Source of the DNA: Candidatus Saganbacteria bacterium
Lineage (GTDB): Bacteria; Margulisbacteria; WOR-1; O2-12-FULL-45-9
NCBI GenBank assembly: GCA_016932255.1
Contig: JAFGDE010000008.1
Span: forward strand, 1 to 64,000
DNA length: 64,000 nt
Direction: 5' to 3'
Below are positions 16,355-32,882 of this stretch, piece by piece (positions within the stretch are counted from its first letter, which is position 1; each line of letters opens with the position of its first letter). The translations under genes were made by a program, and so were the position numbers. Under the pieces are notes generated by a model. It saw nothing but the letters and a program-made list of their open reading frames with translations. It made no database searches and was not told where the DNA came from.

Positions 16355-17273
16355 ACTATCTGTTATTATACCTGTTTTCAACGAAGCCGGCAGCTTAGCC
16401 GAGCTCTACAACAGGCTCTTGCCGGTGATCAAGGCTCAGGCTGCCTCTTACGAGATAATTTTTGTTGATGACGGCAGCAGCGACGGTTCGCTGTCAGCGA
16501 TAGAGGAACTGGCCAAACAGGACCACGCAGTTAAAGCCGTGTCTTTTTCCCGTAATTTCGGGCACATGATCGCTCTGTCAGCCGGGCTGGACAAAGCCAG
16601 CGGCCGCGCGGTCATTACCATGGACGCCGACCTCCAGCATCCGCCGGAGCTTATCCCGGAGCTGATGGCCAAATGGAAAGCAGGCGCTCAGGTCGTCAAT
16701 ACCCGCCGGGGCAAGGGCAAAGGCGTTGGCTTCTTTAAAAGAATTACTGCCGGGATATTCTACTGGTTGATCAACCGGATCGCCAAGGTCAACCTGCCGG
16801 CCAATGCGGCTGATTACCGCCTGCTCGATGAAAAAGTCGTGGCCACACTGAAACAGGTGCGCGAGCGCTCCCGCTTCCTGCGCGGTCTGATCCGCTGGGT
16901 CGGCTTCAAGCAGGAGTTCGTTGATTATCAGCCGGATAAGCGCTTTGCCGGCAGGACAAAATACTCTGTTTCGCGCATGATCGCCTTTGCCATAGATGGG
17001 ATAACCTCTTTCTCGACCTTCCCCCTGCGCCTGGCGACCTATATCGGTTCATGTATAGCTTTTCTCGGAGCCTTATACATCATCTATGCATTATACGTCA
17101 GATTTTTTACCGATCAGGCCATCGAAGGCTGGGCCTCGGTCCTGATCGCCGTGCTCTTTATTGGCGGTGTCCAGCTGGTCTTCCTCGGTATCCTGGGCGA
17201 ATATCTTGGCCGGGTCTTTGAAGAGGTCAAGGCCAGGCCGCTCTATATTATCAATAAACAGATCGGGTTCTGA
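16338..17273 (+). CDS. GT2 glycosyltransferase, GtrB/ArnC-like, membrane anchored
   Basis: 311 residues. The GT-A domain shows LSVIIPVFNEAGSL, FVDDGSSDGS and the metal-binding MDADLQHPPE; RSRFLRGLIRWVGFKQ and the GRTKYS segment are typical of polyprenyl-phosphate sugar transferases. Two C-terminal membrane helices (about 230-255 and 265-290) fit the GtrB fold. It most likely loads a sugar from a nucleotide donor onto undecaprenyl phosphate at the cytosolic face for use by the neighbouring GT-C enzymes. I start at ATG 16338; an in-frame TTG six bases upstream is less likely. Confidence 0.85.
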   Translation: MSEKPELSVIIPVFNEAGSLAELYNRLLPVIKAQAASYEIIFVDDGSSDGSLSAIEELAKQDHAVKAVSFSRNFGHMIALSAGLDKASGRAVITMDADLQHPPELIPELMAKWKAGAQVVNTRRGKGKGVGFFKRITAGIFYWLINRIAKVNLPANAADYRLLDEKVVATLKQVRERSRFLRGLIRWVGFKQEFVDYQPDKRFAGRTKYSVSRMIAFAIDGITSFSTFPLRLATYIGSCIAFLGALYIIYALYVRFFTDQAIEGWASVLIAVLFIGGVQLVFLGILGEYLGRVFEEVKARPLYIINKQIGF

Positions 17274-19201
17274 TGAAGTTATTACGCAGCGCGCTTGATT
17301 GGTTCAATGGTCTGGGTTGGGATCGGCTCTTTTTTTGCCTGGTCGTTCTGGCCGCGCTGGTTTACGTTGTTGTTTTTTCCGCTTATTCGATCATCCTGCA
17401 TGAGAACTTCATGACCCAGGCCTTTGACGCGGGTATCGATGACCAGGGGATCTGGCTGCTGAGCCGCTTCCTGCCGCCGTTCGTTACCGTTAGGGGGCTT
17501 AACCTGTTCGGCGATTCGGTCACGCTGACCCATTTTTTCTTCGCGCCGCTGCTCTGGCTCTGGAACAGCTTCAATATGCTGCTGATCGCCCAGACCTTCT
17601 GGCTGGCGATCGGCGCCATCCCGCTGTTCTTTTTCGCGCGCGAACGGTTTAAGAACGGCTTTCTGGCCATGTCGGTCTCGTTCTCTTATCTGTTGTATCC
17701 GGCCCTGCAGAACATGAACCTGGATCAGTTCCATTCCGAGGTCATCGCGGTCCTTTTCCTGATCATGACCATTTATTACCTGCTCAAGGAAAGATACATG
17801 CCTTATTATGTTTTTCTGGTCCTGTCACTGGTCGCCAAGGACGAGGTCGCTTTGACCGGCCTGTTCCTGGGCCTGTTCCTGATCCTTTTTAAGGGCAAGT
17901 TCAAGCATGGCGTTATCACTATTTTGCTTAGTGCCTCCTGGTATCTGCTTTGTTCCCGTGTTTTTATGCCGGTCTTTAATGATGTCGGCATCCTGGCGCC
18001 GCAGCCACTAACTTATTCTCACTGGTTCAGAGGTCTGACCAGCAATCTGTACAATGTTGACTTCTATCTGCACAATCTGTTTTGCGCAGAAAGTATGTTT
18101 TATTATCTAGGACTGCTTCTACCGGTCGCTTTTCTCCCCTTGTTCAGCCCGCCGGTATTATTCCTGCTCATCCCTTCCGTCGGTGTCAATGTTCTAAGCG
18201 GGACCGGGTATCTGCGCTCGGTTTCTTACCACTATAATTATATTCAGACCGCGGTCATCTTCTTTGCCCTGATCGGCGGAGCGGCTTTCTGGCAAAGAGT
18301 TCTATCACGCTGGCGGATGCTTGAGAGACTTGCCCCTACACTGCTCGGCCTGCTCATTTTTAGTTGCGCTATAGTCAGCAATCTCAGTTGGAGCCGCCTG
18401 CCGCTTAACCGGCAGTGGGAATTATTTAACCGTGATCTTTATTATCTATATGCACAAGATAATCTGGCCAAGCATCAGGCTGTCTCCTTGGTGCCGGAAA
18501 ATGCCGGGGTTGCTGCCTCTTATTCACTGGTCCCGCATCTAAGTCATCGCCAGTACGTTTATATGTTCCCCAATCCATTTAAGCAATCTATCTGGGGCCA
18601 GTGGTTCCAGGAAGGCAAGGGCCTTCATCCGGCTTTCGAGCACGTTGATTATATCGTGCTGGAAACAGGCCTGCATTCTTCGGAAGAGAGGCTGGTCATG
18701 AATTACCTGCGCCACTCACTTTTTTATGATCAGGTTTTACACAAGGATCCGGTGCTGGTGATCAAGAAGGTTAAAAAGGTCCGGCCGGCAGACCAGGGTG
18801 CCAAGTTCTTTGTCCAGCGGATCAACGATAAAAGCGGTTTCCGCGCCAGAGGGATCGTCTCAGTGCTTTATTTCCCTGATTCCCGCTATGATCTTAGGTC
18901 GCTTCTTGGCGAGATAGTCACCGCGGAGAAGAGCGTTATGGTCTCCTTTGCCGGTTATCTCGACCTGCCCGAGAGCGGGAAATATGATTTTAAACTTGTT
19001 GGCCGCGGCCAGAAGTCAATGTCGATCGATGGCCGGACCATAAAAGGCCCGCTCTGGCTGAGAAAAGGCGTACACGAATATAAGATCAGCTATATCAATA
19101 CAGGTAATGATTTTATGTTCAAGCTGACCGTTGTTCCCCCTGGCGGGAACGAGCAGATCGTGCCGGACAGCTGGTTGAGGCTGAATCGGGGATCACGATA
19201 G
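17273..19201 (+). CDS. DUF2079 membrane protein with PA14-like C-terminal domain
   Basis: 642 residues. The N-terminal ~380 residues form about nine to ten membrane helices with DUF2079 features: AFDAGIDDQGIWLLSRF with acidic residues in the first outer loop, LDQFHSEVIAV, and LVAKDEVALTGLFLGLFL. A soluble domain follows and, from about residue 525, a PA14-like carbohydrate-binding beta-sandwich (VSFAGYLDLPESGKYDFKL, SIDGRTI, GVHEYKISYIN). DUF2079 proteins are presumed GT-C-type transferases. The start overlaps the GT2 stop by one base, so the two are likely coupled. Confidence 0.7.
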   Translation: MKLLRSALDWFNGLGWDRLFFCLVVLAALVYVVVFSAYSIILHENFMTQAFDAGIDDQGIWLLSRFLPPFVTVRGLNLFGDSVTLTHFFFAPLLWLWNSFNMLLIAQTFWLAIGAIPLFFFARERFKNGFLAMSVSFSYLLYPALQNMNLDQFHSEVIAVLFLIMTIYYLLKERYMPYYVFLVLSLVAKDEVALTGLFLGLFLILFKGKFKHGVITILLSASWYLLCSRVFMPVFNDVGILAPQPLTYSHWFRGLTSNLYNVDFYLHNLFCAESMFYYLGLLLPVAFLPLFSPPVLFLLIPSVGVNVLSGTGYLRSVSYHYNYIQTAVIFFALIGGAAFWQRVLSRWRMLERLAPTLLGLLIFSCAIVSNLSWSRLPLNRQWELFNRDLYYLYAQDNLAKHQAVSLVPENAGVAASYSLVPHLSHRQYVYMFPNPFKQSIWGQWFQEGKGLHPAFEHVDYIVLETGLHSSEERLVMNYLRHSLFYDQVLHKDPVLVIKKVKKVRPADQGAKFFVQRINDKSGFRARGIVSVLYFPDSRYDLRSLLGEIVTAEKSVMVSFAGYLDLPESGKYDFKLVGRGQKSMSIDGRTIKGPLWLRKGVHEYKISYINTGNDFMFKLTVVPPGGNEQIVPDSWLRLNRGSR

Positions 19202-19203
19202 AT

Positions 19204-20700
19204 ATGTTAAATTATCGCTTAACTCAACGGCAAGCATTTAAGCTCTGTCTTTTTATAACGCTGGTCATGGCCCTAGCTTTCTTTCTGATCTACTTTTTTT
19301 GCACGTTGAACAAATATCAGGCGATGAGAATGCCCTGGGCGGAGGACCTGGCGATCTTTAACCAGGCTTTCTGGAAACCGATACATTATGGCACCTTTGA
19401 TATCACTGTCAGGCCTTACAACCATGTGCTGGGCATGCATTTCAGCCCGATAATGCTCCTTTTGCTGCCGTTGTATGCGTTGTGTCCCTGTCCGCCAACC
19501 CTCTTTGCCATTTCCATCTTTGGCCTGTGCACTGCCGGAGCGTTGATCTTCCTTATCGCAGATAAGATCACCAGCTCCCCCTGGCTGGCGCTTGTTTGGG
19601 CCTGGGTCTTCTTTATTTCCAGCCCGCTGGTCAACCTGTCCACGAACGGCTTCCGTTTTGTCTTATTGAGCGTGCCCTTCCTCGCGCTGGCGATATATTT
19701 CTATCTCAACAAGAAGTTCTGGCCAACGATGACCGCTTTACTGCTGGCTGCTATGTGCAAGGAGGAGGTCCCGCTGATCCTAATCGGTTTTTCGATCATG
19801 GCCTGGCTCAACGGCCGGGAGTTGAAATGGCGTTTACTGCCGGGGCTCTTCGGTCTTAGCTACTTCATTATCGTTATCAGCTTGGTGATGCCCTGGTTCA
19901 ACAGGGCTGGGGTCCTGGCCGGTGCCGGTTTTGAAACATATTATTATCTCGGCGCGAACCTGAAAGGGGTTATCTGGACGTTGCTGACCAACCCGTTGAT
20001 CGCTCTGCGGATGGTCCTGCGCCAGCATATATTTTCTTTTCTGGCCCAGCTGCTCTTACCAGTCTTCTGCCTCCCTTTGTTGGCGCCGGCCTGGCTGTTG
20101 GTCCCTTTCAGCCAGTTCCTGGTCATGTTCCTGGCCGGTTATTCATATTATGCCAGCACCGAATACTGGTATTTTTCACCGGTCTATCCTTTTGTCTTTG
20201 CTGCAGCTGCTGCCGGATTATTAAAGATCATGAACTGGTTCGCCAGGAAGTTGGGACCATCCGGAGCCAGGGGGATCTTTGCGTTGTTGGTCTTTACTTT
20301 CTCCTTTTTTTCGCCTGGCTTGAACAACGTTCAACGCTGTTTTCAGCGGCTTGACACATCATCTTCAGAGGCATACATTGCCTTCGCTGCCACAATACCT
20401 GAGCAAGCCTCTGTAACGACCCAAACACCGCTGACCCCGTATCTGTCCGCCAGGCGAGAACTATGCCTGGTGCGCCGGCTGCCGCGGACAGATTATGTTA
20501 TCCTTGAGTTCAGAGCTGATGTCTGGCCTCTTAGTCGGGAGGAATATGATGCATACCTGCGCCAGTTGGCCGATTCCGGCAGATATAGGTTAATTAAAAA
20601 GATAGGTGATAGGCTGGTCTTACGGCGCACTGAAAAGAGATATTACGACCAGCAGTTGATCGATGAGATAGATACATTTTTTAATGTTGAACAACAATAG
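19204..20700 (+). CDS. DUF2079-family membrane protein (second copy)
   Basis: 498 residues, about ten membrane helices. MPWAEDLAIFNQAFWKPIHYG, YNHVLGMHFSPIMLLLLPLY and LLLAAMCKEEVPLILIGFSI parallel the motifs of the upstream DUF2079 protein, but the PA14-like tail is missing; a short soluble C-terminus follows residue ~380. It is probably a paralogous GT-C-type transferase. There is no clear Shine-Dalgarno; the ATG lies two bases after the previous stop. Confidence 0.7.
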   Translation: MLNYRLTQRQAFKLCLFITLVMALAFFLIYFFCTLNKYQAMRMPWAEDLAIFNQAFWKPIHYGTFDITVRPYNHVLGMHFSPIMLLLLPLYALCPCPPTLFAISIFGLCTAGALIFLIADKITSSPWLALVWAWVFFISSPLVNLSTNGFRFVLLSVPFLALAIYFYLNKKFWPTMTALLLAAMCKEEVPLILIGFSIMAWLNGRELKWRLLPGLFGLSYFIIVISLVMPWFNRAGVLAGAGFETYYYLGANLKGVIWTLLTNPLIALRMVLRQHIFSFLAQLLLPVFCLPLLAPAWLLVPFSQFLVMFLAGYSYYASTEYWYFSPVYPFVFAAAAAGLLKIMNWFARKLGPSGARGIFALLVFTFSFFSPGLNNVQRCFQRLDTSSSEAYIAFAATIPEQASVTTQTPLTPYLSARRELCLVRRLPRTDYVILEFRADVWPLSREEYDAYLRQLADSGRYRLIKKIGDRLVLRRTEKRYYDQQLIDEIDTFFNVEQQ

Positions 20701-21901
20701 CAACCACACAGCTATTATCGGTGCCGGCATCACCGGGCTATCCCTGGCCTACTATCTCCTCAAAAAAGGCGAACAGGTAACGCTGTTCGAAAAAGAGCCT
20801 GAGGTCGGCGGATTGATCCGAACCTTGGCGGTCGGTGGCACGCGGCTAGAAAGGTTCTATCATCACTTTTTTGTCCAGGACGAAGCGGCTTTTGCTTTGA
20901 TCGATGAGCTTGGTTTAAAGGACAGGTTAGTCTGGGCCGAGCCTAAAATTGGTTTCTATGCCCAGGGCAGACTTTATCCTTTCAGTACGCCTTTTGACCT
21001 GCTCCGCTTCCGGCCTTTATCCTTACTGCAAAGGATCAAGCTCGGCTTGTTCAGCCTGAAGCAGAAGAAAAGGATAGAGTGGAAGTCACTGGAAAAGATC
21101 ACGGCCAGGGACTGGCTGGTCAAGGAACTTGATGAAAAGACCTATCAGCTTGTCTGGCAGCCGCTCTTGCGCGGCAAGTTCGGCAAGTACGCTGACCAGG
21201 TGCCGGCGACTTTCATCTGGTCGCGCTTAAAGGACCGCTCCAGCAGCCGTGACCGCTTCGGTTTCAAGGAAAGATTGGCCTATTTGTCCTGCAGTTACCA
21301 GATGCTGGTCAATGCATTGGTCGAACGGATAACCCGGATGGGCGGAGAGATAAGGTTAAATACCGACGGCAGTCGGCTCAAGCTGGCTGATTTTGACCGG
21401 ACAGTCGTCACCACGCCGGCTGCCTTTGGTTTTCAAAAAGTCGGCTACCTGGCCAATATCTGCCTGGTGCTGGAGCTTAAGCGGCCCTTCTCTGACCTTT
21501 ATTGGACGAATATTGGTGACGCTTCTTTGCCTTTCTGCGTTATGGTCGAACAGACCAATGGTTTTGACCAGCCGGAGTATCAGGGCCGCAAACTGCTGTA
21601 TGTTTCTGCTTATCTTGATACTGATGATCAGCTCTGGTCAGCGGACGATCAACAGGTGTTGGAGACCTTCAACTCCGGGCTCAAGCGCGTTAAACCCGGC
21701 TTTGACACGGCTGACATTATCAAATATCATGTTTTCCGGGCCGAGTTCGCTCAACCGGTCCCCAGGCTGGATCACGCAAGGAGCCTGCCGCAGTTCAAGG
21801 CAGGCGATAAATTGTTCTACCTGACCAACGCGCAGATCTATCCGCAGGACAGGGGAGTGAACAACTCTATTAAACTGGCATGGCAATTCGCAGAGCTATA
21901 G
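20684..21901 (+). CDS. FAD-dependent amine-oxidase/protoporphyrinogen-oxidase-like protein
   Basis: 405 residues. The N-terminal Rossmann dinucleotide motif is clear (AIIGAGITGLSLAYYLLKKG, then VTLFEKEPEVGGLIRT), followed by the GG-x-x-R substrate region of the flavin amine oxidase superfamily; the C-terminal FAD block is around YLTNAQIYPQDRGVNNSIKLA. Related proteins are common in polysaccharide loci, where they are annotated as UDP-galactopyranose-mutase-like or HemY-like without proven substrates. Its place among glycosyltransferases suggests a sugar or prenyl-lipid modification. The start overlaps the DUF2079 stop by 17 bp. Confidence 0.75.
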   Translation: MLNNNSNHTAIIGAGITGLSLAYYLLKKGEQVTLFEKEPEVGGLIRTLAVGGTRLERFYHHFFVQDEAAFALIDELGLKDRLVWAEPKIGFYAQGRLYPFSTPFDLLRFRPLSLLQRIKLGLFSLKQKKRIEWKSLEKITARDWLVKELDEKTYQLVWQPLLRGKFGKYADQVPATFIWSRLKDRSSSRDRFGFKERLAYLSCSYQMLVNALVERITRMGGEIRLNTDGSRLKLADFDRTVVTTPAAFGFQKVGYLANICLVLELKRPFSDLYWTNIGDASLPFCVMVEQTNGFDQPEYQGRKLLYVSAYLDTDDQLWSADDQQVLETFNSGLKRVKPGFDTADIIKYHVFRAEFAQPVPRLDHARSLPQFKAGDKLFYLTNAQIYPQDRGVNNSIKLAWQFAEL

Positions 21902-23349
21902 TACTGATAATACTGGTCTTGATCCTGTTGTTGCAGGTCGCCCTGCGCTGGCCGTTTTTGTCAGTGCCGCTGGAGCGCGACGAAGGGGCCTATGGCTATG
22001 TGGCGCAGCGGATACTGGCTGGCGAGCTGCCTTACCGGGACGCCTTTGACCATAAACCGCCGGTCATATATTATCTTTACGCTTCCTTTATCTATTTCGG
22101 CGGCAATACCGTTGCAGCGATCCGGGCGCCAGCCCTGGTCTGGTCCTTGCTGACCACGCTGGCGCTTTTCTGGCTGGGCCGCTTGCTCTTTGGCTCGACC
22201 GCCGGTTTAGTTGCGGCTTTTTTCTTTGCTGTTTTTTCCGGCGGAGTGCTGGTCCAGGGCACTTCAGCAAATACCGAGGTCTTTATGGTCCTGCCGCTGG
22301 TATTATCCTTGATCTTTTTCCTGTTCGGCCTAAAGGATGGACAAGACAGAGCAAAGGTTCTTATCGTTGCCGGCCTGTTCGGCGGACTGGCCATGATGAT
22401 CAAGCAGACGGCGGCGGTCAATCTGGCGGTCATGTTCCTGTTCTTCTTCAGCCGGCAGGACGGCAAGATCCATTATAAATGGCGGCCAGCGCTGGCGCTG
22501 CTGGCAGGGGCCTTGATAGTGCCGGCGGTTTTTTCGTTCTATTTCCTCGTCCGCGGCGCCTGGCCGGATTATCTTTGCCAGGTACTGATCGTCAATCGGA
22601 GATACATCAGCTCGCTTGATTTTGGGCCGGTGGCGCGGCTGGCCGGCGGTCTTTACACGACCTATATTTTTGCCAAACTGGAAAATGGCGTGCTCTGGCT
22701 GCTGGCCCTGATCGGCCTGGCCTATATATTACTGGAAGAACGGACCAGAGAGAATGCTGTTCTGGCCGCCTGGACCCTGGCTTCAGTGGTCGGGCTCAGC
22801 GCCAGCGGTCTGTTCTTTGGACATTATTACCTCCAATTGATACCGGCGCTCTGTCTGCTGGCAGCTTACGCGGTCAAAAAAGTCTGGCGGGAGGCTGGTC
22901 TGGCCTATAACCTGGCCCTGGCCGTGTTGCTGCTCTGGCTCTTTTTGCCGACCCTGGCATACCAGGCGCCGTTCTATTTTAGCTATTCCTCTGAACAGAT
23001 AGCTAATGCCCAGTATGGCAAACCCTCTTACAGTATCGCCAAACGGCTGGCGGACAAACTGGCCCCGCGGCTGCGCTCCAGTGACCGGGTACTGGTCTGG
23101 GCGGCGGACCCGGAGGTTTATTTCTATCTGAATAAAAAGGCGCCGACCAGGTATTTCAGCTATCTCAGGTGGCTGGAAAGCAGGGAGCTGCAGCGAGAGA
23201 TCTCGGCCGGACTTATCAGCGATCCGCCGGACTATATCATCTGGACAGATTATAATTTTGCGTACCCGGAATTGCTGCAGCTGCTGCGTGAGCGATACCA
23301 ACTTGATTTTGGCATCGGCAGCTGGCGGGTTTATAAGCGAAAGAGGTAA
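21880..23349 (+). CDS. Glycosyltransferase family 39 (ArnT/PMT-like) membrane protein
   Basis: 489 residues, about eleven membrane helices. The first outer loop has LERDEGAYGYVAQRILAGELPYRDAFDHKPP, the classic DE-x-Y-x-x-A...GE-x-PY-x-D...KPP pattern of GT39 enzymes that transfer sugars from polyprenyl-phosphate carriers to lipids or proteins. A soluble C-terminal part follows residue ~370. It should act at the periplasmic face, probably on substrates made by the neighbouring GT2 enzymes. It overlaps the FAD enzyme gene by 22 bp. Confidence 0.85.
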   Translation: MAIRRAIVLIILVLILLLQVALRWPFLSVPLERDEGAYGYVAQRILAGELPYRDAFDHKPPVIYYLYASFIYFGGNTVAAIRAPALVWSLLTTLALFWLGRLLFGSTAGLVAAFFFAVFSGGVLVQGTSANTEVFMVLPLVLSLIFFLFGLKDGQDRAKVLIVAGLFGGLAMMIKQTAAVNLAVMFLFFFSRQDGKIHYKWRPALALLAGALIVPAVFSFYFLVRGAWPDYLCQVLIVNRRYISSLDFGPVARLAGGLYTTYIFAKLENGVLWLLALIGLAYILLEERTRENAVLAAWTLASVVGLSASGLFFGHYYLQLIPALCLLAAYAVKKVWREAGLAYNLALAVLLLWLFLPTLAYQAPFYFSYSSEQIANAQYGKPSYSIAKRLADKLAPRLRSSDRVLVWAADPEVYFYLNKKAPTRYFSYLRWLESRELQREISAGLISDPPDYIIWTDYNFAYPELLQLLRERYQLDFGIGSWRVYKRKR

Positions 23350-23354
23350 GGCCA

Positions 23355-24095
23355 ATGAGTAAGGTCGTAGTGGTCATGCCGGCCTACAACGCGGAAAAGA
23401 CGCTCGAACGCACTTATAATGATATACCGAAAGACCTGGTCGATCAGGTGATCCTCGGTGACGACTGCTCCAGTGACCGGACGATCGAGATCGCGGGCCG
23501 TCTGGGCATCAGGGTCATCAAGACGGAACATAATCTTGGCTATGGTGGCAACCAGAAAATGCTTTACCGTGAAGCACTGGCTCAAGGGGCTGATGTTGTG
23601 GTCATGGTCCATCCGGACTGGCAGTATGATGCGACCAAGGTGCCTGATATGGTGGGGCCGATATTAGCCGGGGAAAAGGACATCATGATGGGGTCCAGGG
23701 TCTTGGGGCCGGGGTCCAGTGTGTTGGCTGGGGGGATGCCCTTCTATAAATTGATCTCCAACCGTTTCCTGACCTGGGTCGAGAACCTGGTCCTTCGCCT
23801 GCGCCTTTCCGAATACCACACGGGCTTTCGGGCGTACAGCCGCAAGGTGCTTGAGACCATCCCTTTTCATTTGAACTCCAATGATTTTGTCTTTGATACC
23901 GAGGTCTTGGCCGAAGTGGCGGCTAATAATTTTCGCGCCGGGGAGATCGCGGTGCCGTGCCGTTATTTCCCCGAGGCCTCGGAGATAAACTTTTGGCGCA
24001 GCACGGTTTACGGTCTGCAGACGCTGTCTGTCTGTCTCAAATATTTTCTGCATAAGCTGGGCTTAAAACGGTTTGCACAGTTCCAGCCCAAGTGA
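23355..24095 (+). CDS. GT2 glycosyltransferase, dolichyl-phosphate-mannose-synthase-like
   Basis: 246 residues with no membrane helix. VVVVMPAYNAEKTLERTY, LGDDCSSDRTIEIA, NLGYGGNQKMLYREAL and the acidic MVHPDWQYDA site identify a GT-A fold of the DPM1-like branch; EYHTGFRAYSRKVLE is the acceptor-side motif. It probably makes a polyprenyl-phosphate sugar for the GT39 or GT-C enzymes upstream. It is the last gene of the glycosylation cluster, directly before the pilin genes. Confidence 0.85.
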   Translation: MSKVVVVMPAYNAEKTLERTYNDIPKDLVDQVILGDDCSSDRTIEIAGRLGIRVIKTEHNLGYGGNQKMLYREALAQGADVVVMVHPDWQYDATKVPDMVGPILAGEKDIMMGSRVLGPGSSVLAGGMPFYKLISNRFLTWVENLVLRLRLSEYHTGFRAYSRKVLETIPFHLNSNDFVFDTEVLAEVAANNFRAGEIAVPCRYFPEASEINFWRSTVYGLQTLSVCLKYFLHKLGLKRFAQFQPK

Positions 24096-24101
24096 TAAAA
24101 T
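24073..24101 (+). promoter_or_regulatory. Possible promoter of the pseudopilin locus
   Basis: Weak -35 TTGCAC (24073-24078), 17-bp spacer, extended -10 TGA-TAAAAT (24093-24101), then eight bases to ATG 24110. It lies in the 3' end of the preceding gene, and the start codon has no Shine-Dalgarno. Confidence 0.5.
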
Positions 24102-24109
24102 CAGGCCAA

Positions 24110-24616
24110 ATGAGGCGCAAAGGTTTTAGCATCGTAGAGCTGGTCGTTGTCCTTGCCATTGTCGGCATCCTCGGAGTATTCGCATTTATCGCCCTTGACC
24201 CATATAAAGGCATCAAGCTCGATGCGGGCGCGCAGAAGGTGGCCGCAGATCTGCAGTACGCCAGGAACCTGGCCCTGTCAACCGCTAAGTGGGTCGGCGT
24301 CAGTTTTGAGGTCGATCCGGTCAATACCTATGCCGTCTATGAGACGGATGATACCGGCGATACCATCATTGAGAACCCTTCGGCCCTGGGTAAGGACTTT
24401 ATAGTGGATATCGCTGATTTCTACGACGGCATTAAGATCATCGGGGTGAATTGCGGCGGCGGCAGTAAGATCGAGTTCCACCCTCTGGGTATCCCCTATA
24501 CCGACAGGAACGGTTCTGAGATAGCCGGCATATCTGTGATCACTCTTTCCTACCGCGGCGTTACAAGGGAGGTCCATGTTACGCCGAACACCGGCAGAAT
24601 AGAGGTCCAGCAATGA
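24110..24616 (+). CDS. GspH/FimT-like minor pseudopilin
   Basis: 168 residues from ATG 24110. Prepilin peptidase site RRKG/FSIVELVVVLAIVGILG with Glu at mature position 5, a hydrophobic N-terminal helix, then a beta-rich globular domain ending VTPNTGRIEVQQ; QKVAADLQYARNLALSTAKWVGVSF is characteristic of GspH/FimT. It should be part of the pseudopilus tip. A GTG 18 bases upstream in frame would only lengthen the leader. It overlaps the next gene by 4 bp. Confidence 0.88.
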   Translation: MRRKGFSIVELVVVLAIVGILGVFAFIALDPYKGIKLDAGAQKVAADLQYARNLALSTAKWVGVSFEVDPVNTYAVYETDDTGDTIIENPSALGKDFIVDIADFYDGIKIIGVNCGGGSKIEFHPLGIPYTDRNGSEIAGISVITLSYRGVTREVHVTPNTGRIEVQQ

Positions 24617-25008
24617 CCGGCCCGGTCAAACGGGGCTTTACGCTGGTCGAGGTCGTCATTTCAATGGTCGTGATCGCTATCGTCATGTACGCTTCCTTGT
24701 CGATCTTCATCAATTCCGGGGCCCGCGAATCCAATGTTGAGGTCTTTACCGTAGCCCAGACCCTGGCCGAGGATAAAATGGAAGAGACCATGGCCAAGGA
24801 ATTCACTGCCATAAGCGATGAAGCTGCCAGTGCCTTGGGCGGCGATCTGGGCGATTTTTCTTCTTCGGTCAGCGTTGCTTATGTCACGCCTGAAGCGCTT
24901 GATACAGCGGTGACCGGGCCGACAAATTATAAAAGGATCAATGTCCGGATCGAGCATGCCCTGTTAGGCCGGCCCGCCTCACTGGAATGCATAAAGGTAA
25001 GCCTCTGA
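24613..25008 (+). CDS. GspI/PilV-like minor pseudopilin (copy 1)
   Basis: 131 residues. Leader MTGPVKRG, then FTLVEVVISMVVIAIVMYASLSIF with Glu at mature position 5. Small size and the QTLAEDKMEE region after the helix fit GspI/PilV. It is the first gene of an I-J-K cassette that is repeated downstream (26728-28818); the copy-2 homologue shares the IxYASLSIF helix and the TTEVYTxAQxLAE-type segment. Overlaps both neighbours. Confidence 0.85.
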   Translation: MTGPVKRGFTLVEVVISMVVIAIVMYASLSIFINSGARESNVEVFTVAQTLAEDKMEETMAKEFTAISDEAASALGGDLGDFSSSVSVAYVTPEALDTAVTGPTNYKRINVRIEHALLGRPASLECIKVSL

Positions 25009-25493
25009 TGCTGAAAAAGGGCTTTACTCTGGTCGAGGGGCTGATCGCGGTGATATTGATCGCCTTGCTGATCTTTGTCATCGGGTTGTATATCCGTGAA
25101 GGAGTGGCGGCCTGGGGTTTTTTGGGCGGACAAAAACGGTTGATCCTGTCCCAGCGTGCGGCCATGAACCGGCTGACCAAAGAACTGAAGCGGGCCCGCC
25201 AGAACACTAATATCCTGACCCATACGACCAAAGAAGTCAGGTTCCTGGACATTGAGAACAACCTGGTCAGGTTCTACCAAAGCGGGCCGAATCTTATGCG
25301 GGATTCCGAGGTCCTGTTCGGCGAACTGCAGGATCCCTGCGGCCTTAGCCTGACCTACCATGATTCAGACGGCAATGAAACAGCCAATCCCAGTGAAATG
25401 GCCTTTATCCGCTGCCGCATGACCTCGCAGAGCGGTGATAACCGTTTTGTGCTTGAGTCAGCCTCCAGGCTTAGGGTCCGGAGGATCAAATGA
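25008..25493 (+). CDS. GspJ/PilW-like minor pseudopilin (copy 1)
   Basis: 161 residues from ATG 25008, which shares a base with the preceding TGA. Leader MLKKG, then FTLVEGLIAVILIALLIF with Glu at position 5. The RAAMNRLTKELKRARQNTNIL segment (R-x-x-M-x-R-x-x-x-E) is typical of GspJ/PilW. The C-terminus ESASRLRVRRIK matches copy 2 (ESAARIRIKRLK). An upstream in-frame ATG (24987) lies inside the previous gene and would give an atypically long leader. Confidence 0.85.
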   Translation: MLKKGFTLVEGLIAVILIALLIFVIGLYIREGVAAWGFLGGQKRLILSQRAAMNRLTKELKRARQNTNILTHTTKEVRFLDIENNLVRFYQSGPNLMRDSEVLFGELQDPCGLSLTYHDSDGNETANPSEMAFIRCRMTSQSGDNRFVLESASRLRVRRIK

Positions 25494-26728
25494 TGCGGCA
25501 GTTGAGATCAGGATTTACTCTGATCGCCGCGGTCTTTATCATGCTGATAATGATCCTGCTGGCTTTGACCCTGGCCACCTATATCTCCTCTGACGCGATG
25601 ATAGCCTCCAAGAACTATTTCTCGCAGAAAGCTTTTTATATTGCCAGCGCCGGCATGGAATATTATATCAAACAACTTGATGATGATAGCGACTGGAGAA
25701 CCCCGCCGGCGGAAAAAAGCAAGGATTTCGGCGGCGGCCATTTTGTTATTACGACGACCAATGAATCGGTCAATGACATAATCTTTTACGTTACTGGCCT
25801 GTACACGGTCGAAGGCGAAACGTACCGGCGCGTCATTGAGCCGATGATCTTGCGCAGCGGCGGCGGGTTATCAGCGATCCTGTCCGAATACCTGGTCTAT
25901 TGGGGCGGTGGCAGCGGCATGGACTCCGAGATCAAGAATAATGCCGTAATCATCGGCGATATTTTTCTCAATACCGATCTGACGATATCGAATAACGTGG
26001 TCATCAGCGGGGACGCGTACTCGACTTCGGATATTGGTATTGGCACGAACGTGACGATCACCGGAACACTGGAGATCGGCGTAGAGCTGCCGAGCAATCC
26101 GCCGACCCTCGATACTACACCTTACGATAACCAAATAGCTATTGCAGCGGCTTATCCTGCGGGCAACGAAAGTTATAATTCTCAAGCTTTTACTGGGACA
26201 ACTTATGTGAACGGGGATGTGACGTTCAATAATAATGCAAATATTACTATTACCGGTTCGGCCACGATCGTGGCGACGGGTAAAGTGACCGTGCGACAGA
26301 ACGTGAGCTTTGGTGATAATCTGACGATAATTGCCGGCGGCAAAGTTGATATCGCTAATAACGTTGATATCGGTGAGAGCGGGCTGTGGTATTCGGGCAC
26401 AGAGATAGAGGTGGGCAATAATGCCGAGGTGGGTGAGGTCGGGGTCGGCGAAGGGACAGTGTTCATAACTCCCGGTGATATTGATTTTGGTAACAACATT
26501 GAATATTACGGCTTCATTTACTGTGGCGGTGATTTTGTTCAGACCGGCAATAACTTCTATTTTGAGGGCAACATGATAGTGGGCGGTGGTATGGTGGTGG
26601 ATAATAACACGACGATGCAGCTAAATCCAGATCTCTTTTCCATTGAAGACCTTGTTGGCATTATTGGAGGCGGTGGGGCGGGTTCATTGGATAATATCGA
26701 TGTCACTTCTTGGGATGAGGTGTACTGA
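25490..26728 (+). CDS. GspK/PilX-like pseudopilin with beta-helix-like repeat domain (copy 1)
   Basis: 412 residues. Leader MMRQLRSG, then FTLIAAVFIMLIMILLAL; mature position 5 is Ala, not Glu, as in GspK tip pseudopilins. KAFYIASAGMEYYIKQLDDD (residues ~45-65) is the PilX/GspK N-terminal block. From about residue 130 a long repeat of short turns follows (NNAVIIGDI, NNVVISGDA, NNANITITG, NNVDIGESG, NNAEVGEVG, TGNNFYFEGN), resembling bactofilin-like or left-handed beta-helix rungs. It ends SWDEVY. It is probably a pseudopilus tip protein with an added rod-like adhesive or substrate-binding domain; that role is inferred. Confidence 0.75.
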   Translation: MMRQLRSGFTLIAAVFIMLIMILLALTLATYISSDAMIASKNYFSQKAFYIASAGMEYYIKQLDDDSDWRTPPAEKSKDFGGGHFVITTTNESVNDIIFYVTGLYTVEGETYRRVIEPMILRSGGGLSAILSEYLVYWGGGSGMDSEIKNNAVIIGDIFLNTDLTISNNVVISGDAYSTSDIGIGTNVTITGTLEIGVELPSNPPTLDTTPYDNQIAIAAAYPAGNESYNSQAFTGTTYVNGDVTFNNNANITITGSATIVATGKVTVRQNVSFGDNLTIIAGGKVDIANNVDIGESGLWYSGTEIEVGNNAEVGEVGVGEGTVFITPGDIDFGNNIEYYGFIYCGGDFVQTGNNFYFEGNMIVGGGMVVDNNTTMQLNPDLFSIEDLVGIIGGGGAGSLDNIDVTSWDEVY

Positions 26729-27111
26729 TGAAGCGCGGTTTTTCTCTTATCGAACTGATGGTTTCACTGCTTGTTATCGCGATCATCATTTATGCCAGTT
26801 TGTCTATTTTTGTCGGCGCCGGCACCAAAGGGATCAATCTTGAGGTCTATACCACGGCCCAATCATTGGCCGAGGGCATGCTCGAAGAAGAGATGACCCG
26901 GCCGTTCGCTGATATCAGCAGTGAAGCGGCGACGGGATTCTCGGGTGAACTGAACGCCTACACTTATCAACTCCAGGTGGATTACGTTTCAGCTGAAGCT
27001 TTTGACCAGCCGGTCGGCTCAACCACAGATTACAAGAAGATCGCGGTCAGTATCATGCACCCGAAACTGAACAATCCGATCACGCTTGAGGCGGTGAAAG
27101 CCAATTACTGA
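26728..27111 (+). CDS. GspI/PilV-like minor pseudopilin (copy 2)
   Basis: 127 residues. Leader MKRG, then FSLIELMVSLLVIAIIIYASLSIF with Glu at position 5. Clearly homologous to the protein at 24613, with the same QSLAEGMLEEEMTRPFADISSEAA pattern. It begins the second I-J-K cassette. Its ATG overlaps the stop of the copy-1 K gene, and a GAGGTG ribosome site precedes it. Confidence 0.85.
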   Translation: MKRGFSLIELMVSLLVIAIIIYASLSIFVGAGTKGINLEVYTTAQSLAEGMLEEEMTRPFADISSEAATGFSGELNAYTYQLQVDYVSAEAFDQPVGSTTDYKKIAVSIMHPKLNNPITLEAVKANY

Positions 27112-27595
27112 GCATAAAAAGGGATTTACCCTGATCGAAGGGCTTGTGACGATAATCCTGGTATCGTTTTTGTCCTCTTTTATCGGCCTCTATATCAGGG
27201 AAATAGTGGAAGCCTGGGATGTCTTCAGCGGCCAAAAGACCATGGCGCTGTCATCGCGCGCGGCCATGAACCGGATCGTCCGCGAGATCAAGCGCATCAA
27301 TCAGAACACTAATATATTGACGCATGCTTCCGCTGAAGTGACTTTTATAGATGTGGGGAACAATACGGTGACATTTTTACAGAGCGGCACCAACCTGATG
27401 CGAAATTCCAATGTCCTTTTATCCGACCTGCAGAATCCCGGCGGCCTGACGTTCAGTTATCTTGATGAAGATGGCAATCCAACGGCCATCACCAATCAAA
27501 TGAGGCTGGTGCGCTGCCGCATCATAACGGTCAAAGAAGAGAACAGGTATGTGATCGAGTCAGCGGCCAGAATAAGAATAAAGAGGTTGAAGTAA
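27104..27595 (+). CDS. GspJ/PilW-like minor pseudopilin (copy 2), no canonical start codon
   Basis: The frame encodes HKKG/FTLIEGLVTIILVSFL with Glu at mature position 5, then RAAMNRIVREIKRINQNTNILTHA and the C-terminus ESAARIRIKRLK, homologous to copy 1. No ATG, GTG, TTG or CTG lies between the in-frame stop at 27095-27097 and the prepilin motif. The only near-cognate codon is ATT at 27104, with GAGGCGG nine bases upstream, used here as a tentative start (163 residues). The first GTG (27146) would remove the cleavage site and part of the helix. Where copy 1 has GATGCTG, copy 2 reads GAGCAT, so the start has been lost or replaced. Alternatives are reinitiation or frameshift from the upstream gene, or a sequencing error. 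Confidence 0.65.
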   Translation: MTEHKKGFTLIEGLVTIILVSFLSSFIGLYIREIVEAWDVFSGQKTMALSSRAAMNRIVREIKRINQNTNILTHASAEVTFIDVGNNTVTFLQSGTNLMRNSNVLLSDLQNPGGLTFSYLDEDGNPTAITNQMRLVRCRIITVKEENRYVIESAARIRIKRLK

Positions 27596-28818
27596 TGAGC
27601 AATAAAAAAGGCTTCAGTCTGATCGCGGCGATATTTGTGTTATTGATTATGGTGCTTTTTACTTTAACGGTTGCATCCTTTCTCTCGGCTGACGCTGTTG
27701 TGGCTGCCAAGAACCACAACTCGCTCCGGGCCTTTTACATCGCCAGCACCGGTCTCGAATACTATTTTAAACAAATGGACGATGACGATGATTGGTCAAC
27801 CCCGCCTCTTGGCAAGACCGGCGTCTTTAAGGACGGGGCTTTTTCAATAACCACGACCGATGAGTCCAAGAACCGGCTGACCTTTACCGTGACCGGACTT
27901 TACACTGTTGAAGGGACGACCTACCGCCGGGCGCTCAGGCCGACAATTCAAAGGACAGCCGGCGGGATCGGCGATATCCTCGGTGATTATGTCCTTTACT
28001 GGGGCGGCAACGAAGGTGATGGATCTTATATAGCCAATAATGCCACGATCATCGGAGATATATATACCGGCGCTACGCTGGAGATAGGCAGCAATGTTAA
28101 TATTAGCGGGGATGCGACATCCTCAGGGGATATAACCACCGGTTCAGGCACAACAGTTGACGGTACGATCGAAACGTATATCGAACCACCCTTCAATCCG
28201 CCGTCCCTGGAGACCACTTACTATGACGATCAATTGGCCATTGCCGCGACCTATCCTTTAGGCAACCAAACCTGGACGACCAAGAGCCTTTCCGGCACGA
28301 TCTATATCAACGGTAATCTAACAATGGATAATAATGCTGATATCAACCTGACCGGGGTTGCTACAGTTGTTGTTACCGGCTGGGTCTTAGTACGGAATAA
28401 TGCTGATGTTGGGGATGGGATACATGTCACGGCTGGCGGCATGATCACGATAGAGAACAACGCCGTCCTGGGGATGAGCCAGGTTTGGTATTCTTCGATC
28501 GGTTTCGACGTCGGCAATAATGCTGAAGTAGGCGAGGTCGAGGTTGGGGAGGGAACTTCCTTCCTTACGCCTGGCGACATCAATTTCGGCAATAACATCG
28601 AGTTCTACGGCTTCATTTTCTGTGAAGGTAATTTCACCCAGACCGGCAACAATTTCTATTTTGAAGGCAACATGATAGTAGGCGGGGATATCATGGTCGA
28701 TAACAATTCGACCCTGGTACTTAATCCTTATCTTGTGGATGTTGACGCGTTAGAAGGCGTCGGCGGGACCGAAGGTGAAGAGACCATCGACATGACTGGC
28801 TGGGACGAGGTTTATTAA
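27595..28818 (+). CDS. GspK/PilX-like pseudopilin with beta-helix-like repeat domain (copy 2)
   Basis: 407 residues. Leader MSNKKG, then FSLIAAIFVLLIMVLFTL; again Ala at mature position 5. RAFYIASTGLEYYFKQMDDDDDW parallels copy 1, as do the YWGG segment (~residue 140), the rung-like repeats (NNATIIGDI, NNADINLTG, NNADVGDGI, NNAVLGMSQ, NNAEVGEVE, TGNNFYFEGNM) and the end GWDEVY. The shared C-terminal WDEVY in two otherwise diverged tails suggests a functional motif. A likely transcription unit boundary follows, since a promoter begins at 28823. Confidence 0.75.
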   Translation: MSNKKGFSLIAAIFVLLIMVLFTLTVASFLSADAVVAAKNHNSLRAFYIASTGLEYYFKQMDDDDDWSTPPLGKTGVFKDGAFSITTTDESKNRLTFTVTGLYTVEGTTYRRALRPTIQRTAGGIGDILGDYVLYWGGNEGDGSYIANNATIIGDIYTGATLEIGSNVNISGDATSSGDITTGSGTTVDGTIETYIEPPFNPPSLETTYYDDQLAIAATYPLGNQTWTTKSLSGTIYINGNLTMDNNADINLTGVATVVVTGWVLVRNNADVGDGIHVTAGGMITIENNAVLGMSQVWYSSIGFDVGNNAEVGEVEVGEGTSFLTPGDINFGNNIEFYGFIFCEGNFTQTGNNFYFEGNMIVGGDIMVDNNSTLVLNPYLVDVDALEGVGGTEGEETIDMTGWDEVY

Positions 28819-28859: not shown

Positions 28860-30506
28860 ATGCCTACCAACAAGCCATTTTTAGGGATTGACCTGCGAGT
28901 CAACTCTGTCAAGGTGGTTGAGATCGAACCTGCCAAGACAGGATCTCCCATCCTCAAGGCTTGGGGTTTGACCGAGATCCCCTACAACCTGGTTGATAAG
29001 CACCCCCAGAAGGAAGACGCCCAGGCTGAGGCCCTGCGCAAGCTGATTCAGACCCGCAAGATGAAAGCCAAGGATGCGGCCGTTGTTGTCGGCGGCAATG
29101 ATGTTTTTGTCCGGCTGTTCACTCTGGCCGAGGTTTCCCGCGCCGAGCTGGCTGAGGTCATCAAATGGAAGTTCGCTGAAGAAGTCCCCTTTCCGGTCGA
29201 GGAAGCCATTATCGATTTCTATCCTTTGCCCCGTTCGGCCACTGCGTTCAGCGAAAAAAAAGAATACATAGCGGCATGTATCAATGTTAAGCTGTTCAAA
29301 GAGATAGATTACATCATTCGCAAGGCCGGCCTTAACCTGAGCGCGCTTAATATTCTGCCGGACTGTCTGCACACTGTCTTTGAGCATGAACTGCATAAAC
29401 ACCACGATAAGATAGTTTCCCTGATGTATATGGGGAAGCGGACGACAAATATCACCATTCTCAAAGATGAGAACATTGAGTTCAACAGGGAACTGTCCAT
29501 CGGCGGGGAAAATATCACCCTGGCCATGTCGGGGGTCTTGGTCTCAGCTGATGGACGGGTCGAGATCAGTCCTGAAGAAGCGGAAAAGATCAAGGTCGAG
29601 CACGGCATACCGCTTGACCTGGAAAAATACCCTAAATTCTCCGAGATACCTGTTTCCCAGCTGCAGGCCATGGTCAGACCGGCCCTGGAGCGGGTGCAAG
29701 ATGAGATCATGCGCACCTTTGAGTATTACAAGGGCCAGACGGGCGAGGCGGCCATTGATAAGATACTGATCACCGGCGGCAGCTCGTTGACCATCAACCT
29801 GGTCGATTTTCTGGCCCAGGGCCTGGGGGTGCCGGTTGAAACGCCTAATGCCATGGAGGGCGGCCGGATCGATGAGAAGATCGAGGACCGGCCGACGTTT
29901 GACAGGGCCCTGCCGCGCCTGACCGCGGCAATTGGCGCGGCCATGGTCGGCGCGACCAAGATCAACCTGCTGCCGGAAGAGCGCAAGTACCGCTGGAAGA
30001 CCTTCACCAAGAAATTTGTCAAGCCTCAGTACATCGTGCCGGTCTTTACCGCGCTCTTGCTCCTGGTTTACGGCGTTTTCTGGCTGCAGGCAGCGCTCTT
30101 GACCAGTGAGATCAGTACGGTCAACAATAAGATGAGCCGGTATAAACCGCGGATAGCGACGCTGGATATCATTGAAAAAGCGACCCAGGAAAAAGAACGG
30201 CGCAAGGCCGTGGTTGAGTCATACGCCGAAAAACGCACAAAGATGCCGGCCATCTTCCGCGAACTCAGCCGTCTGATCCCTCAGAGCGTATTTGTGAACG
30301 TTCTGAATCTTACGCCCAGCGAGCTCCATCTCTGGGGTACGGCGATCGGCAAATACGACACAGCCGAGAATATCCTGTCGCAATTCGTCATCGCCTTATC
30401 GACCTCTGATTATTTCCAGGAGATCCGGTTGATCCAGGCGATAAAGAATTATGATTATATCGATGATGCTTTCAATTTTGAGATAGTGGCTGAGATAAAG
30501 ATCTAG
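28860..30506 (+). CDS. PilM-PilN fusion protein, type IV pilus inner-membrane assembly
   Basis: 548 residues. The first ~360 are PilM (actin-like, FtsA-type fold): FLGIDLRVNSVKVVEIE, EVIKWKFAEEVPFPVEEAIIDF, LYMGKRTTNITIL, FNRELSIGGENIT, DKILITGGSSL. At I368 the PilN signature INLLPEERKYRW begins, followed by one membrane helix (about 384-405) and the periplasmic coiled-coil/ferredoxin-like part of PilN. In model systems PilM is a separate cytosolic protein that binds this same N-terminal INLLP peptide, so the fusion fixes the interaction covalently. PilO, PilP-like and PilQ genes follow in the usual order. Confidence 0.88.
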   Translation: MPTNKPFLGIDLRVNSVKVVEIEPAKTGSPILKAWGLTEIPYNLVDKHPQKEDAQAEALRKLIQTRKMKAKDAAVVVGGNDVFVRLFTLAEVSRAELAEVIKWKFAEEVPFPVEEAIIDFYPLPRSATAFSEKKEYIAACINVKLFKEIDYIIRKAGLNLSALNILPDCLHTVFEHELHKHHDKIVSLMYMGKRTTNITILKDENIEFNRELSIGGENITLAMSGVLVSADGRVEISPEEAEKIKVEHGIPLDLEKYPKFSEIPVSQLQAMVRPALERVQDEIMRTFEYYKGQTGEAAIDKILITGGSSLTINLVDFLAQGLGVPVETPNAMEGGRIDEKIEDRPTFDRALPRLTAAIGAAMVGATKINLLPEERKYRWKTFTKKFVKPQYIVPVFTALLLLVYGVFWLQAALLTSEISTVNNKMSRYKPRIATLDIIEKATQEKERRKAVVESYAEKRTKMPAIFRELSRLIPQSVFVNVLNLTPSELHLWGTAIGKYDTAENILSQFVIALSTSDYFQEIRLIQAIKNYDYIDDAFNFEIVAEIKI

Positions 30507-30515
30507 GAGAATTAC

Positions 30516-31034
30516 ATGGCGATCAAACTATCGAAGAGGGAAAAAACGCTGGCGATGATCGCGCTGGGCGCGGCCATGTTCTATGTGTTCTATCAGTTCC
30601 TGCTTGTCCCGAAACTCGAAGAAACGGATAAACTCAAGACCGAAGCCAAGAAATTGCGTTTGGAACTTAAGGTCGCCGAACAAAAGATCAAGATCCTGGA
30701 GCAGGTGGAGAAAAGATTGGGTACGGTCGAGCAGCGCCAACCGAAAAGGGAAGCTGTCGAGGTCGAAGAGGAGGCGCTAAAGGTGCTGCGTGCGCTGGCG
30801 CAGACGACCAGCAGTTCCAAGTTGAAATTGTTGTCCATTAAGCCTATCATTGGCAAAGGCAATACCCTGCGCTTTGAACTTCTGTGTACCGGGACATATC
30901 AACAACTCTATTCGTTCCTGGAGATACTGCATGGATTGGATATATTAATGCTGATCGATTCGCTTAATGTCACGAGCCGCGGCAGCCAAAGCGGTGATCT
31001 TGATATAAAAGTTTCATTAACGGCGCATTTGTAA
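30516..31034 (+). CDS. pilO: PilO-like pilus assembly protein
   Basis: 172 residues: short cytosolic N-terminus, one membrane helix (about 13-30), coiled coil (about 35-75) and a ferredoxin-like periplasmic domain (LRFELLCTGTYQQLYSFLEILHGLDILMLIDSL matches PilO/GspM). It pairs with the PilN half of the upstream fusion to form the inner-membrane alignment complex. A TAGGAG ribosome site precedes the ATG. Confidence 0.85.
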   Translation: MAIKLSKREKTLAMIALGAAMFYVFYQFLLVPKLEETDKLKTEAKKLRLELKVAEQKIKILEQVEKRLGTVEQRQPKREAVEVEEEALKVLRALAQTTSSSKLKLLSIKPIIGKGNTLRFELLCTGTYQQLYSFLEILHGLDILMLIDSLNVTSRGSQSGDLDIKVSLTAHL

Positions 31035-31035: not shown

Positions 31036-31584
31036 ATGAAAAAACAGCAATTGATACTGGTAATATTATTGATAGCGGCGCTGGGTTATTCGGGCTATGT
31101 TTATTGGCCTTATGTTTCAGCTTATTTCCCGCAGGGTTCAACACAAAAAACAAAACAGCCCCCGCCGCCGGCCGGGATCGAACCGGCAAAGCCGATCGGC
31201 CAGGAAACATCTGAGGCGGAGGTTAAACCTGCTGACCAGCCGAAAGCAGCTGTCCAGCCTGACGGAAAAGAGCCGCAGAAAGCAGGAACAAATGAAATCG
31301 TAGCTGAACCAAAACTGGTCGATCCTTTCGCTTTAAGGATCAATGTCCGGCGCCGCGGCGAGGTTACAGCCAAACCCGAGGAAAAGGAACCAAAACGTGC
31401 CCCTGTTGAGCCGGAACTGGAAGGCATTTGGGTTGACTCGGGCATGCGGGTTGCTTTTATCTCCGGCCAGGCGCTGATCGAAGGCGGCGTGGTCCTGGGC
31501 TGGCGTGTCAGTCGTATCACAAAAACGCAAGTCACTCTGGTCAAGGGAGGCCAGACAAAAATATTAAAATTGGAGGAACAATGA
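31036..31584 (+). CDS. PilP/GspC-like periplasmic linker protein
   Basis: 182 residues. An N-terminal membrane helix (about 6-24), a Pro/Glu/Ala-rich linker (about 35-90), the DPFAL motif (about 97) and a small beta-domain (about 130-180; IWVDSGMRVAFISGQALIEGGVVLGWRVSRITKTQVTLV) fit PilP or the HR domain of GspC. Such proteins bridge PilN/O to the secretin. PilP is usually a lipoprotein; no lipobox cysteine is seen here, so anchoring is by the helix, which is more GspC-like. It overlaps the secretin gene by 4 bp. Confidence 0.75.
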   Translation: MKKQQLILVILLIAALGYSGYVYWPYVSAYFPQGSTQKTKQPPPPAGIEPAKPIGQETSEAEVKPADQPKAAVQPDGKEPQKAGTNEIVAEPKLVDPFALRINVRRRGEVTAKPEEKEPKRAPVEPELEGIWVDSGMRVAFISGQALIEGGVVLGWRVSRITKTQVTLVKGGQTKILKLEEQ

Positions 31585-32882
31585 TGATAATTAGTAAAAA
31601 GTTAACTGCCGGCCTGCTGGTGCTGAGCTTAAGTTTGGTTCTAATCGCCGACCAGGCCTGGGGCCAGGCCAGCAGCAAGAACCTGGTCATACAGAAGGGC
31701 AAAGTCTATCTAAACCTAAAGGATGCTGATATCAAAACGGTCCTGCAGATATTTGCCAAGGCGACCAATACAAATATTGTGACCTCAGATGATGTCGAAG
31801 GCAAGGTCACGGTCACCTTTACCGGAATAGAACCTAAGCAGGGGCTTGAGGCCGTGCTTAGGACAAAAGGCCTGGATTGGTTCGAGGAAGCCGGTACAAT
31901 ATTTGTTTCGACCAAGAAGATCCTGCGCACTTATTATCTGGAGAATGCCAAGCCGTCTGACATATCGACCACGGTCAAGGATATCCTGCCCGGAGGCAGT
32001 AAGGTCTCGGTCGATGACAGTTATAACGTTCTGGTCGTTCAGACCTCTTCTGATTATCTGCCCAGGCTGGAGCGGTTGATCAAGGAGCTGGATGTCGCGC
32101 CGACACAGGTCATGATCGAAGTGCGGATGATCGAATTGCGGCATCAGGATGGCGGCACTATCGGGACCGATGTCAAATACACGAATCCGCGGGACGCGGA
32201 AGACACGGTCCAGACATACAATTTCGCTGACCGCATGAACATGTCCGCGACAACGACCGTTGACGAATCGCAAGGTCTGTTTGCCCATGTTATTTCCGGG
32301 GATATCGAGGCCTATCTTTCGGCACTGCGCAACAGCGCGGTGATCAATACTATTGCCACGCCGCGCATCACCACCATCAGCAATAAAGAAGCCACTTTGC
32401 TGATCGGTTCCAAGCTCGGCTACAAGACGACCGTTATTTCCGAGACGACCACGACCCAGGAGATCAACTTCCTTTCGGTCGGCACATCGCTGGTCTTGAC
32501 GCCTCACGTGACTAAAAGCGGTTTTATCCGCATGGCGGTCGCGCCCAAGATCAGCGACGGCACGATCGTCGGCGACCTGCCGCAGGAGAACACGACTGAG
32601 ACCAGAAATGAGGTCATGGTCCGGGACGGCCAGACCTTTGTCATTGGCGGCTTGACCAAGAACAAAGAAACAGAATCAAATTATGGCATACCGATCCTTA
32701 TGGATATCCCGGTGATCGGTGCGCTTTTCCGGCGCACAGTTACCAGCACTGATAAGCATGAATTGCTTGTCTTTGTCACGCCGCACATCCTGACCCCGCA
32801 GAACCTGGAGACCTTGTCTCATCAGGGGATCAATGAGATAGAGGAAAAGTCGGTTGAATCAAAGGCGCGGCTGATCCACTGA
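31581..32882 (+). CDS. pilQ: Type IV pilus/type II secretion secretin (PilQ/GspD family)
   Basis: 433 residues, shorter than most PilQ proteins. Signal peptide to about AWGQA; an STN/N0-like region (YLNLKDADIKTVLQIFAKATNTNIV), one N1/KH-type domain (TYYLENAKPSDISTTVKDILPGG, VLVVQTSSDYLPRLERLIKELD), then the secretin barrel (VMIEVRMIEL, ATPRITTISNKEATLLIGSK, VRDGQTFVIGGLTKN, IPVIGALFRR, ELLVFVTPHIL). AMIN domains are absent. It forms the outer-membrane gate of the pilus or secretion apparatus. A GGAGG ribosome site precedes the ATG. It converges with gpsA, 15 bp away. Confidence 0.92.
   Translation: MMIISKKLTAGLLVLSLSLVLIADQAWGQASSKNLVIQKGKVYLNLKDADIKTVLQIFAKATNTNIVTSDDVEGKVTVTFTGIEPKQGLEAVLRTKGLDWFEEAGTIFVSTKKILRTYYLENAKPSDISTTVKDILPGGSKVSVDDSYNVLVVQTSSDYLPRLERLIKELDVAPTQVMIEVRMIELRHQDGGTIGTDVKYTNPRDAEDTVQTYNFADRMNMSATTTVDESQGLFAHVISGDIEAYLSALRNSAVINTIATPRITTISNKEATLLIGSKLGYKTTVISETTTTQEINFLSVGTSLVLTPHVTKSGFIRMAVAPKISDGTIVGDLPQENTTETRNEVMVRDGQTFVIGGLTKNKETESNYGIPILMDIPVIGALFRRTVTSTDKHELLVFVTPHILTPQNLETLSHQGINEIEEKSVESKARLIH

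Follow-up and report, generated by a model that had tools for sequence, protein, structure and literature searches.

Two genes in a minor-pilin operon of Candidatus Saganbacteria, KA and KB, probably belong to a type IVa-like pilus and encode ComZ-type modular tip pilins, in which a GspK/PilX_N platform carries an inserted beta-solenoid as a tip head that seems to be exchanged between lineages. We analysed a single window of 64,000 nucleotides (contig JAFGDE010000008.1, positions 1-64,000, assembly GCA_016932255.1). Two open reading frames lie at 25490-28818, as the initial annotation of this DNA had reported. The proteins are 57% identical to each other, and no other long K proteins were found in the genome. 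Their features are as follows.

25490-26728, forward strand: KA, putative K-type tip pilin with inserted beta-solenoid and WDEVY end, 412 residues (sequence, homologues, AlphaFold2 (AF2) model, Foldseek)
25490-25864, forward strand: first part of the KA pilin domain, comprising prepilin peptide, alpha-1 and strands 1-4 (PilX_N, E 0.0059; helix and four strands in AF2, low confidence)
25910-26632, forward strand: KA beta-solenoid module (AF2 predicted local distance difference test (pLDDT) mostly 70-90; DUF7305 at 26273-26632, 22 bits; Foldseek matches to ComZ and ice-binding beta-solenoids)
26711-26725, forward strand: KA terminal WDEVY, putative last strand of the pilin sheet (conservation; retention in solenoid-less K proteins)
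27595-28818, forward strand: KB, putative K-type tip pilin with inserted beta-solenoid and WDEVY end, 407 residues (sequence, homologues, AF2)
28015-28731, forward strand: KB beta-solenoid module, residues ~141-379 (AF2 pLDDT mostly 70-90; NN ladder)
28801-28815, forward strand: KB terminal WDEVY, putative last strand of the pilin sheet (conservation of at least 90% at W403 and E405)

KA and KB join a pilin platform to a beta-solenoid

Both proteins begin with a prepilin sequence (GFTLIAAVF in KA, GFSLIAAIF in KB) in which position 5 of the mature chain is alanine; in H, I and J, the pilins encoded next to them, this residue is Glu5. The lack of Glu5 had been noted before, and together with the K position in an H-I-J-K operon it supports the identification as K-type tip pilins. 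The rod that follows spans residues ~141-378 (~240 residues) and is rich in Asn, Gly and Asp. Nine NN motifs in KA and eight in KB, with neighbours mostly 18-25 residues apart, form a ladder whose count and spacing both exceed those of composition-preserving shuffles (P 0.002-0.006). The NN-rich rod of the initial annotation is real, but its length had been put slightly too high, at about 270 residues. AF2 modelled the rod of both proteins as a solenoid of parallel short strands, for which pLDDT was mostly 70-90, in agreement with the beta-helix proposed from the sequence. When the KA model was used as a Foldseek query, the first match was ComZ (6QVI_B; E 2.1e-4, prob 1.00, 515 alignment columns), followed by DUF3494 ice-binding proteins, which have been named as the class nearest to the ComZ solenoid (PMC6561018). 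For the KB model, ice-binding solenoids ranked first and ComZ was not among the 50 matches listed.

Sequence comparison led independently to the same protein. A profile made from an alignment of 29 homologues (A1) had ComZ (6QVI) as its best match in the PDB (E 1.5e-4), the alignment covering the pilin domain and running into the start of the solenoid. Of 31 genomes in the bacterial class, 30 had homologues; a scan of genome contigs added one distant, patescibacterial homologue, and viral contigs scanned with a five-member alignment yielded no relatives. Pfam matches in KA fell below the curated cut-offs, both for PilX_N (E 0.0059, 17 bits versus 25.5) and for DUF7305 (22 bits versus 27), and KB had no reported match to either family. 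Among the 29 homologues, DUF7305 was detected in eight and PilX_N in nine, and DUF7305 scored above its cut-off in the relatives G016, G020, G024, G026 and G030 (G, L and C numbers denote genomes, loci and contigs). Matches to acyltransferase hexapeptides and weak PDB matches to transferases were taken as generic similarity of left-handed-helix rungs. KA and KB are most probably modular tip pilins of the ComZ or PilX_N-DUF7305 type and not the new class that had been suggested, since Thermus ComZ (PMC6561018) and the Pfam combination of PilX_N with DUF7305 have the same architecture.

The terminal WDEVY is retained in K proteins that lack the solenoid

The final ~25 residues of KA and KB are just ~30% identical, yet both proteins finish in WDEVY, as had been remarked from the sequence. 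This ending is no coincidence and is conserved well beyond the pair: W403 of KB is present in 93% and E405 in 97% of the 29 homologues, and few positions anywhere in the alignment are conserved as well as these two. W-x-E-[VIL]-[YF] is almost invariant among homologues that are ~25% identical, the terminal variants including WNEVY, WEEIY, WQEVY, WSELY, WLEVY, WKEVY, WQESF and WYEVF. W-x-E was found near the C-terminus of 29 of 35 long K proteins and 8 of 22 short ones, but among 161 further proteins encoded in these operons only 1 had it.

K proteins of 120-155 residues that lack the solenoid occur in nature and retain the terminal motif. In the K protein of G008 (L021/L075; L075:1532-2011, G008:C301), which has 132 residues, the solenoid is cleanly missing and the pilin domain runs straight to LSVLNWQEI; the gene sits in an otherwise normal H-I-J-K-PilM operon. 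The window's own genome has a second minor-pilin operon of four pilin-like genes (C25:150775-152332; L109), whose solenoid-less short K (C25:151913-152332; 140 residues) ends in LAWQEL. Genes for short K proteins of this operon type are present in most genomes of the class, and their products end in LAWQEL, LSWEEL, IEWKEL, LEWQEI and similar sequences. Because the motif is retained in these natural solenoid-less proteins, we assign WDEVY to the pilin domain, and because the solenoid of ComZ precedes its last strand (PMC6561018), we read WDEVY as the final strand of that domain's sheet, which the chain would reach after the solenoid. Homology and the solenoid-less K paralogues together strongly imply that the solenoid is inserted between the penultimate and the last pilin strand.

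Several observations weigh against this reading. The pilin part of the AF2 models, each built on an alignment of 3 sequences, had pLDDT <50, WDEVY was not modelled as a strand, and template modelling (TM) scores were low; neither model resolved the strand pairing of WDEVY or the insertion point. Moreover, the W-x-E ending is limited to the above 8 of the 22 short K paralogues; 14 have a Trp near the end, and others finish in FEEI, YEEL or FFEELE or differently.

The solenoid seems to have been exchanged between lineages

Identities in the pilin domain and in the solenoid were poorly correlated (r 0.34). Between the congeneric G010 and G012 (L069:8300-11100 and L074:7950-10850), similarity collapses immediately past the pilin domain. 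With G009 and G014, by contrast, G012 shares 59-60% identity in the solenoid but only 26-32% in the pilin domain. The trees were likewise discordant: pilin data rejected the group {L020,L030,L036} (p value of the approximately unbiased test (p-AU) 2.5e-7), and solenoid data rejected {L015,L020} (p-AU 1e-59) and {L016,L017,L030} (7e-7). Across mutually rejected groupings, p-AU ran from 1.6e-5 to <1e-59 with likelihood differences of 80-240 units; the tested groups were picked after the identities had been seen and the p-values are optimistic, but the likelihood differences are nonetheless large. L018 and L031 also shift position between the two trees. A fast rate of solenoid evolution was considered as the cause of the conflict and rejected, as the discordance runs in both directions. 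For G012 alone, where K is followed by unrelated genes, misassembly or rearrangement is possible; the swapped K of G009 lies within an intact H-I-J-K-PilM-PilO-secretin operon.

Given this strong conflict between pilin and solenoid trees, the solenoid seems to have been exchanged between lineages, as expected of a receptor or adhesin head. On balance, we favour the idea that it is a swappable tip cassette. Within this bacterial class, recombination would replace it, with breakpoints where pilin domain and solenoid meet and close to the terminal strand, while the rest of the H-I-J-K operon would be inherited vertically; such a cassette could also be lost, and two heads would be kept here. In the solenoid tree KB groups with G006 (a KA+KB clade has p-AU 0.010), a grouping with which the pilin tree is compatible (p 0.19). 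It is thus unproven that the pilin domains of KA and KB underwent gene conversion within the window.

The operon points to a retractable type IV pilus

The operon reads H (24092), I1, J1, KA, I2, J2, KB, PilM-PilN fusion, PilO, a protein at the PilP position and a PilQ/GspD-type secretin. Its I-J-K block is duplicated, and KA and KB each close one block. The remaining genes are listed below.

24092-24616, forward strand: GspH/FimT-like minor pilin with Glu5 (Pfam N_methyl 1.2e-6, GspH 0.0028)
24613-25008, forward strand: I-type minor pilin, copy 1, with Glu5 (N_methyl 2.3e-8; orthologues in related genomes lie upstream of J and K)
24987-25493, forward strand: J-type minor pilin, copy 1, with Glu5 (N_methyl 0.0021; gene order conserved)
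26728-27111, forward strand: I-type minor pilin, copy 2 (N_methyl 4.2e-7)
27104-27595, forward strand: J-type minor pilin, copy 2 (sequence; N_methyl 1.1e-4)
28860-30506, forward strand: PilM-PilN fusion (PilM_2 2.3e-32, PilN 5.9e-6)
30516-31034, forward strand: PilO/GspM-like protein (T2SSM 3.6e-4, PilO 0.0013)
31036-31584, forward strand: small protein at the PilP position with membrane anchor, Pro-rich linker and C-terminal domain (position and sequence; orthologue equally placed in many relatives)
31581-32882, forward strand: PilQ/GspD-type secretin (Secretin 3.6e-41; top NCBIfam match PilQ TIGR02515)

No ATG, GTG or TTG precedes the prepilin site of J2 (window 27104-27146), and its likely start is the ATT at 27104, which overlaps the I2 stop. 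More duplications of K or of bigger H-I-J-K portions were seen at L080, L081 and L084, in other genomes of the class. Glycosyltransferase genes (GT2-like, with large membrane proteins, assigned by sequence resemblance only) adjoin the operon at window 13434-24095, as they do in G012 (L074:12755-17159), which suggests a linked glycosylation of pilin or surface. Elsewhere, the genome encodes PilB-type ATPases, PilC, PilT (TIGR01420, above the NCBIfam cut-off) and ComEC, and this inventory makes a retractable type IV pilus, and not a type II secretion system, the most likely assignment.

From the behaviour known for GspK, ComZ and modular pilins, we propose that K assembles with H, I and J into a tip-initiating complex, in which its pilin platform (alpha-1 and a small beta-sheet) would cap the H-I-J-K minor-pilin complex. 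A linker rich in Gly, Ser, Asp and Glu would lead the chain back from the solenoid, and the sheet would be closed by W-x-E-[VI]-[YF] as its terminal strand. The tip is the most plausible place for K because it has no Glu5 and carries a bulky insert, and the solenoid would then be displayed on the end of a retractable pilus. It would most likely be a head that binds a ligand (a surface, polymer, glycan or cell), an adhesin or receptor function being plausible, and PilT-driven retraction would pull on what is bound. Recombination would swap this head between lineages and the platform would evolve separately; with the I-J-K block duplicated, the cell may offer two alternative tips.

The same architecture could instead serve to capture DNA in natural transformation, the role proposed for ComZ: this best solved homologue binds DNA (PMC6561018), and ComEC and PilT are encoded in the genome. 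The solenoids of KA and KB, however, are strongly acidic (1-3 Lys and 1 Arg versus 32-34 Asp+Glu; pI ~4), as are those of most homologues. DNA binding by the solenoid face is accordingly unlikely on composition, while a ComZ-like site between the domains is possible. The DNA-contacting lysines of ComZ, which lie between its domains, could not be mapped onto KA or KB, and the ComZ solenoid itself has no obvious positive patch. Head exchange between lineages further suggests that ligands change. On the whole, we consider DNA capture rather unlikely.

An ordinary type II secretion GspK, that is, a tip pseudopilin engaging secreted substrates, would fit the H-I-J-K order, the secretin and the absence of Glu5 from K. 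However, Pfam searches reported to E 0.5 gave no T2SSK (GspK) match for KA or KB, consistent with the earlier view that the usual GspK domain is missing. The insert is placed differently and is not helical but a beta-solenoid, and PilM/PilN/PilO, PilT and the PilQ-like secretin indicate type IV pili. We consider this explanation improbable.

WDEVY, near invariant and at the extreme C-terminus, might also be an independent signal for sorting, docking or processing that is common to both proteins. Retention of the motif in solenoid-less K proteins and, as W-x-[ED]-phi, in K/PilX_N proteins of other phyla (PilX_N or DUF7305 proteins there end in INSWKDI, VAWKAY, NSWREL, TWRELY and VAWREI) instead fits an element of the fold, as does the position of the last ComZ strand after its solenoid (PMC6561018). 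Contact with I or J through the WDEVY strand is still possible, but a separate signal is improbable. A bactofilin-like polymerising cytoskeletal or scaffold protein is very improbable: the rung pattern that prompted the comparison is common to both, with weak matches in KB (E 0.13) and in 3 of 29 homologues, but the likeness goes no further, the KB score being 12.9 bits against a cut-off of 27.9, and the prepilin leader, the pilin operon and the better ComZ and DUF7305 matches speak for a tip pilin.

Comparison with known systems

Literature searches on solenoid tip pilins and tip-pilin module exchange returned just ComZ and general work on minor and modular pilins, and no paper describing DUF7305 was found among those searched. 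The architecture is already published, in ComZ, and the newer points are head exchange and what the WxE end means. ComZ, the sole solved example of the design met in our searches, is now joined by a family that spans the class and has long, short and swapped forms. The WxE ending gains a testable structural meaning and provides a simple marker for K-type tip pilins and for the insertion sites of foreign domains, and natural head swaps among close relatives open the question of pilus-tip ligands. If the solenoid is a swappable cassette, exchanging the module would alter tip specificity, and two heads would be present together in the window's genome.

ComZ of Thermus thermophilus (PDB 6QVI; PMC6561018) is related to KA and KB by sequence profile and fold and, like them, has partner minor pilins encoded adjacently. 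KA and KB differ from it in their solenoid, which is shorter (~240 versus ~380 residues) and strongly acidic, with DNA binding not indicated, and in their standard H-I-J-K operon with duplicated I-J-K. Proteins with PilX_N and DUF7305 (PF14341, PF23981) have the domain order of KA, and a W-x-E/D end is common across phyla; by contrast, KA stays below both curated cut-offs and KB is without a reported match. GspK (T2SSK) shares the K position, the absence of Glu5, the I and J partners and a pilin fold with an insertion, but there a helical domain is inserted, between strands 3 and 4 (PMC6561018). Modular pilins as a whole occur widely (PMC8179133), and in PilB of Streptococcus sanguinis (PMC8179133) a pilin carrier similarly bears a functional head at the pilus tip. 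That head has a vWA fold and is appended at the C-terminus, whereas the head of KA and KB is a solenoid and probably inserted.
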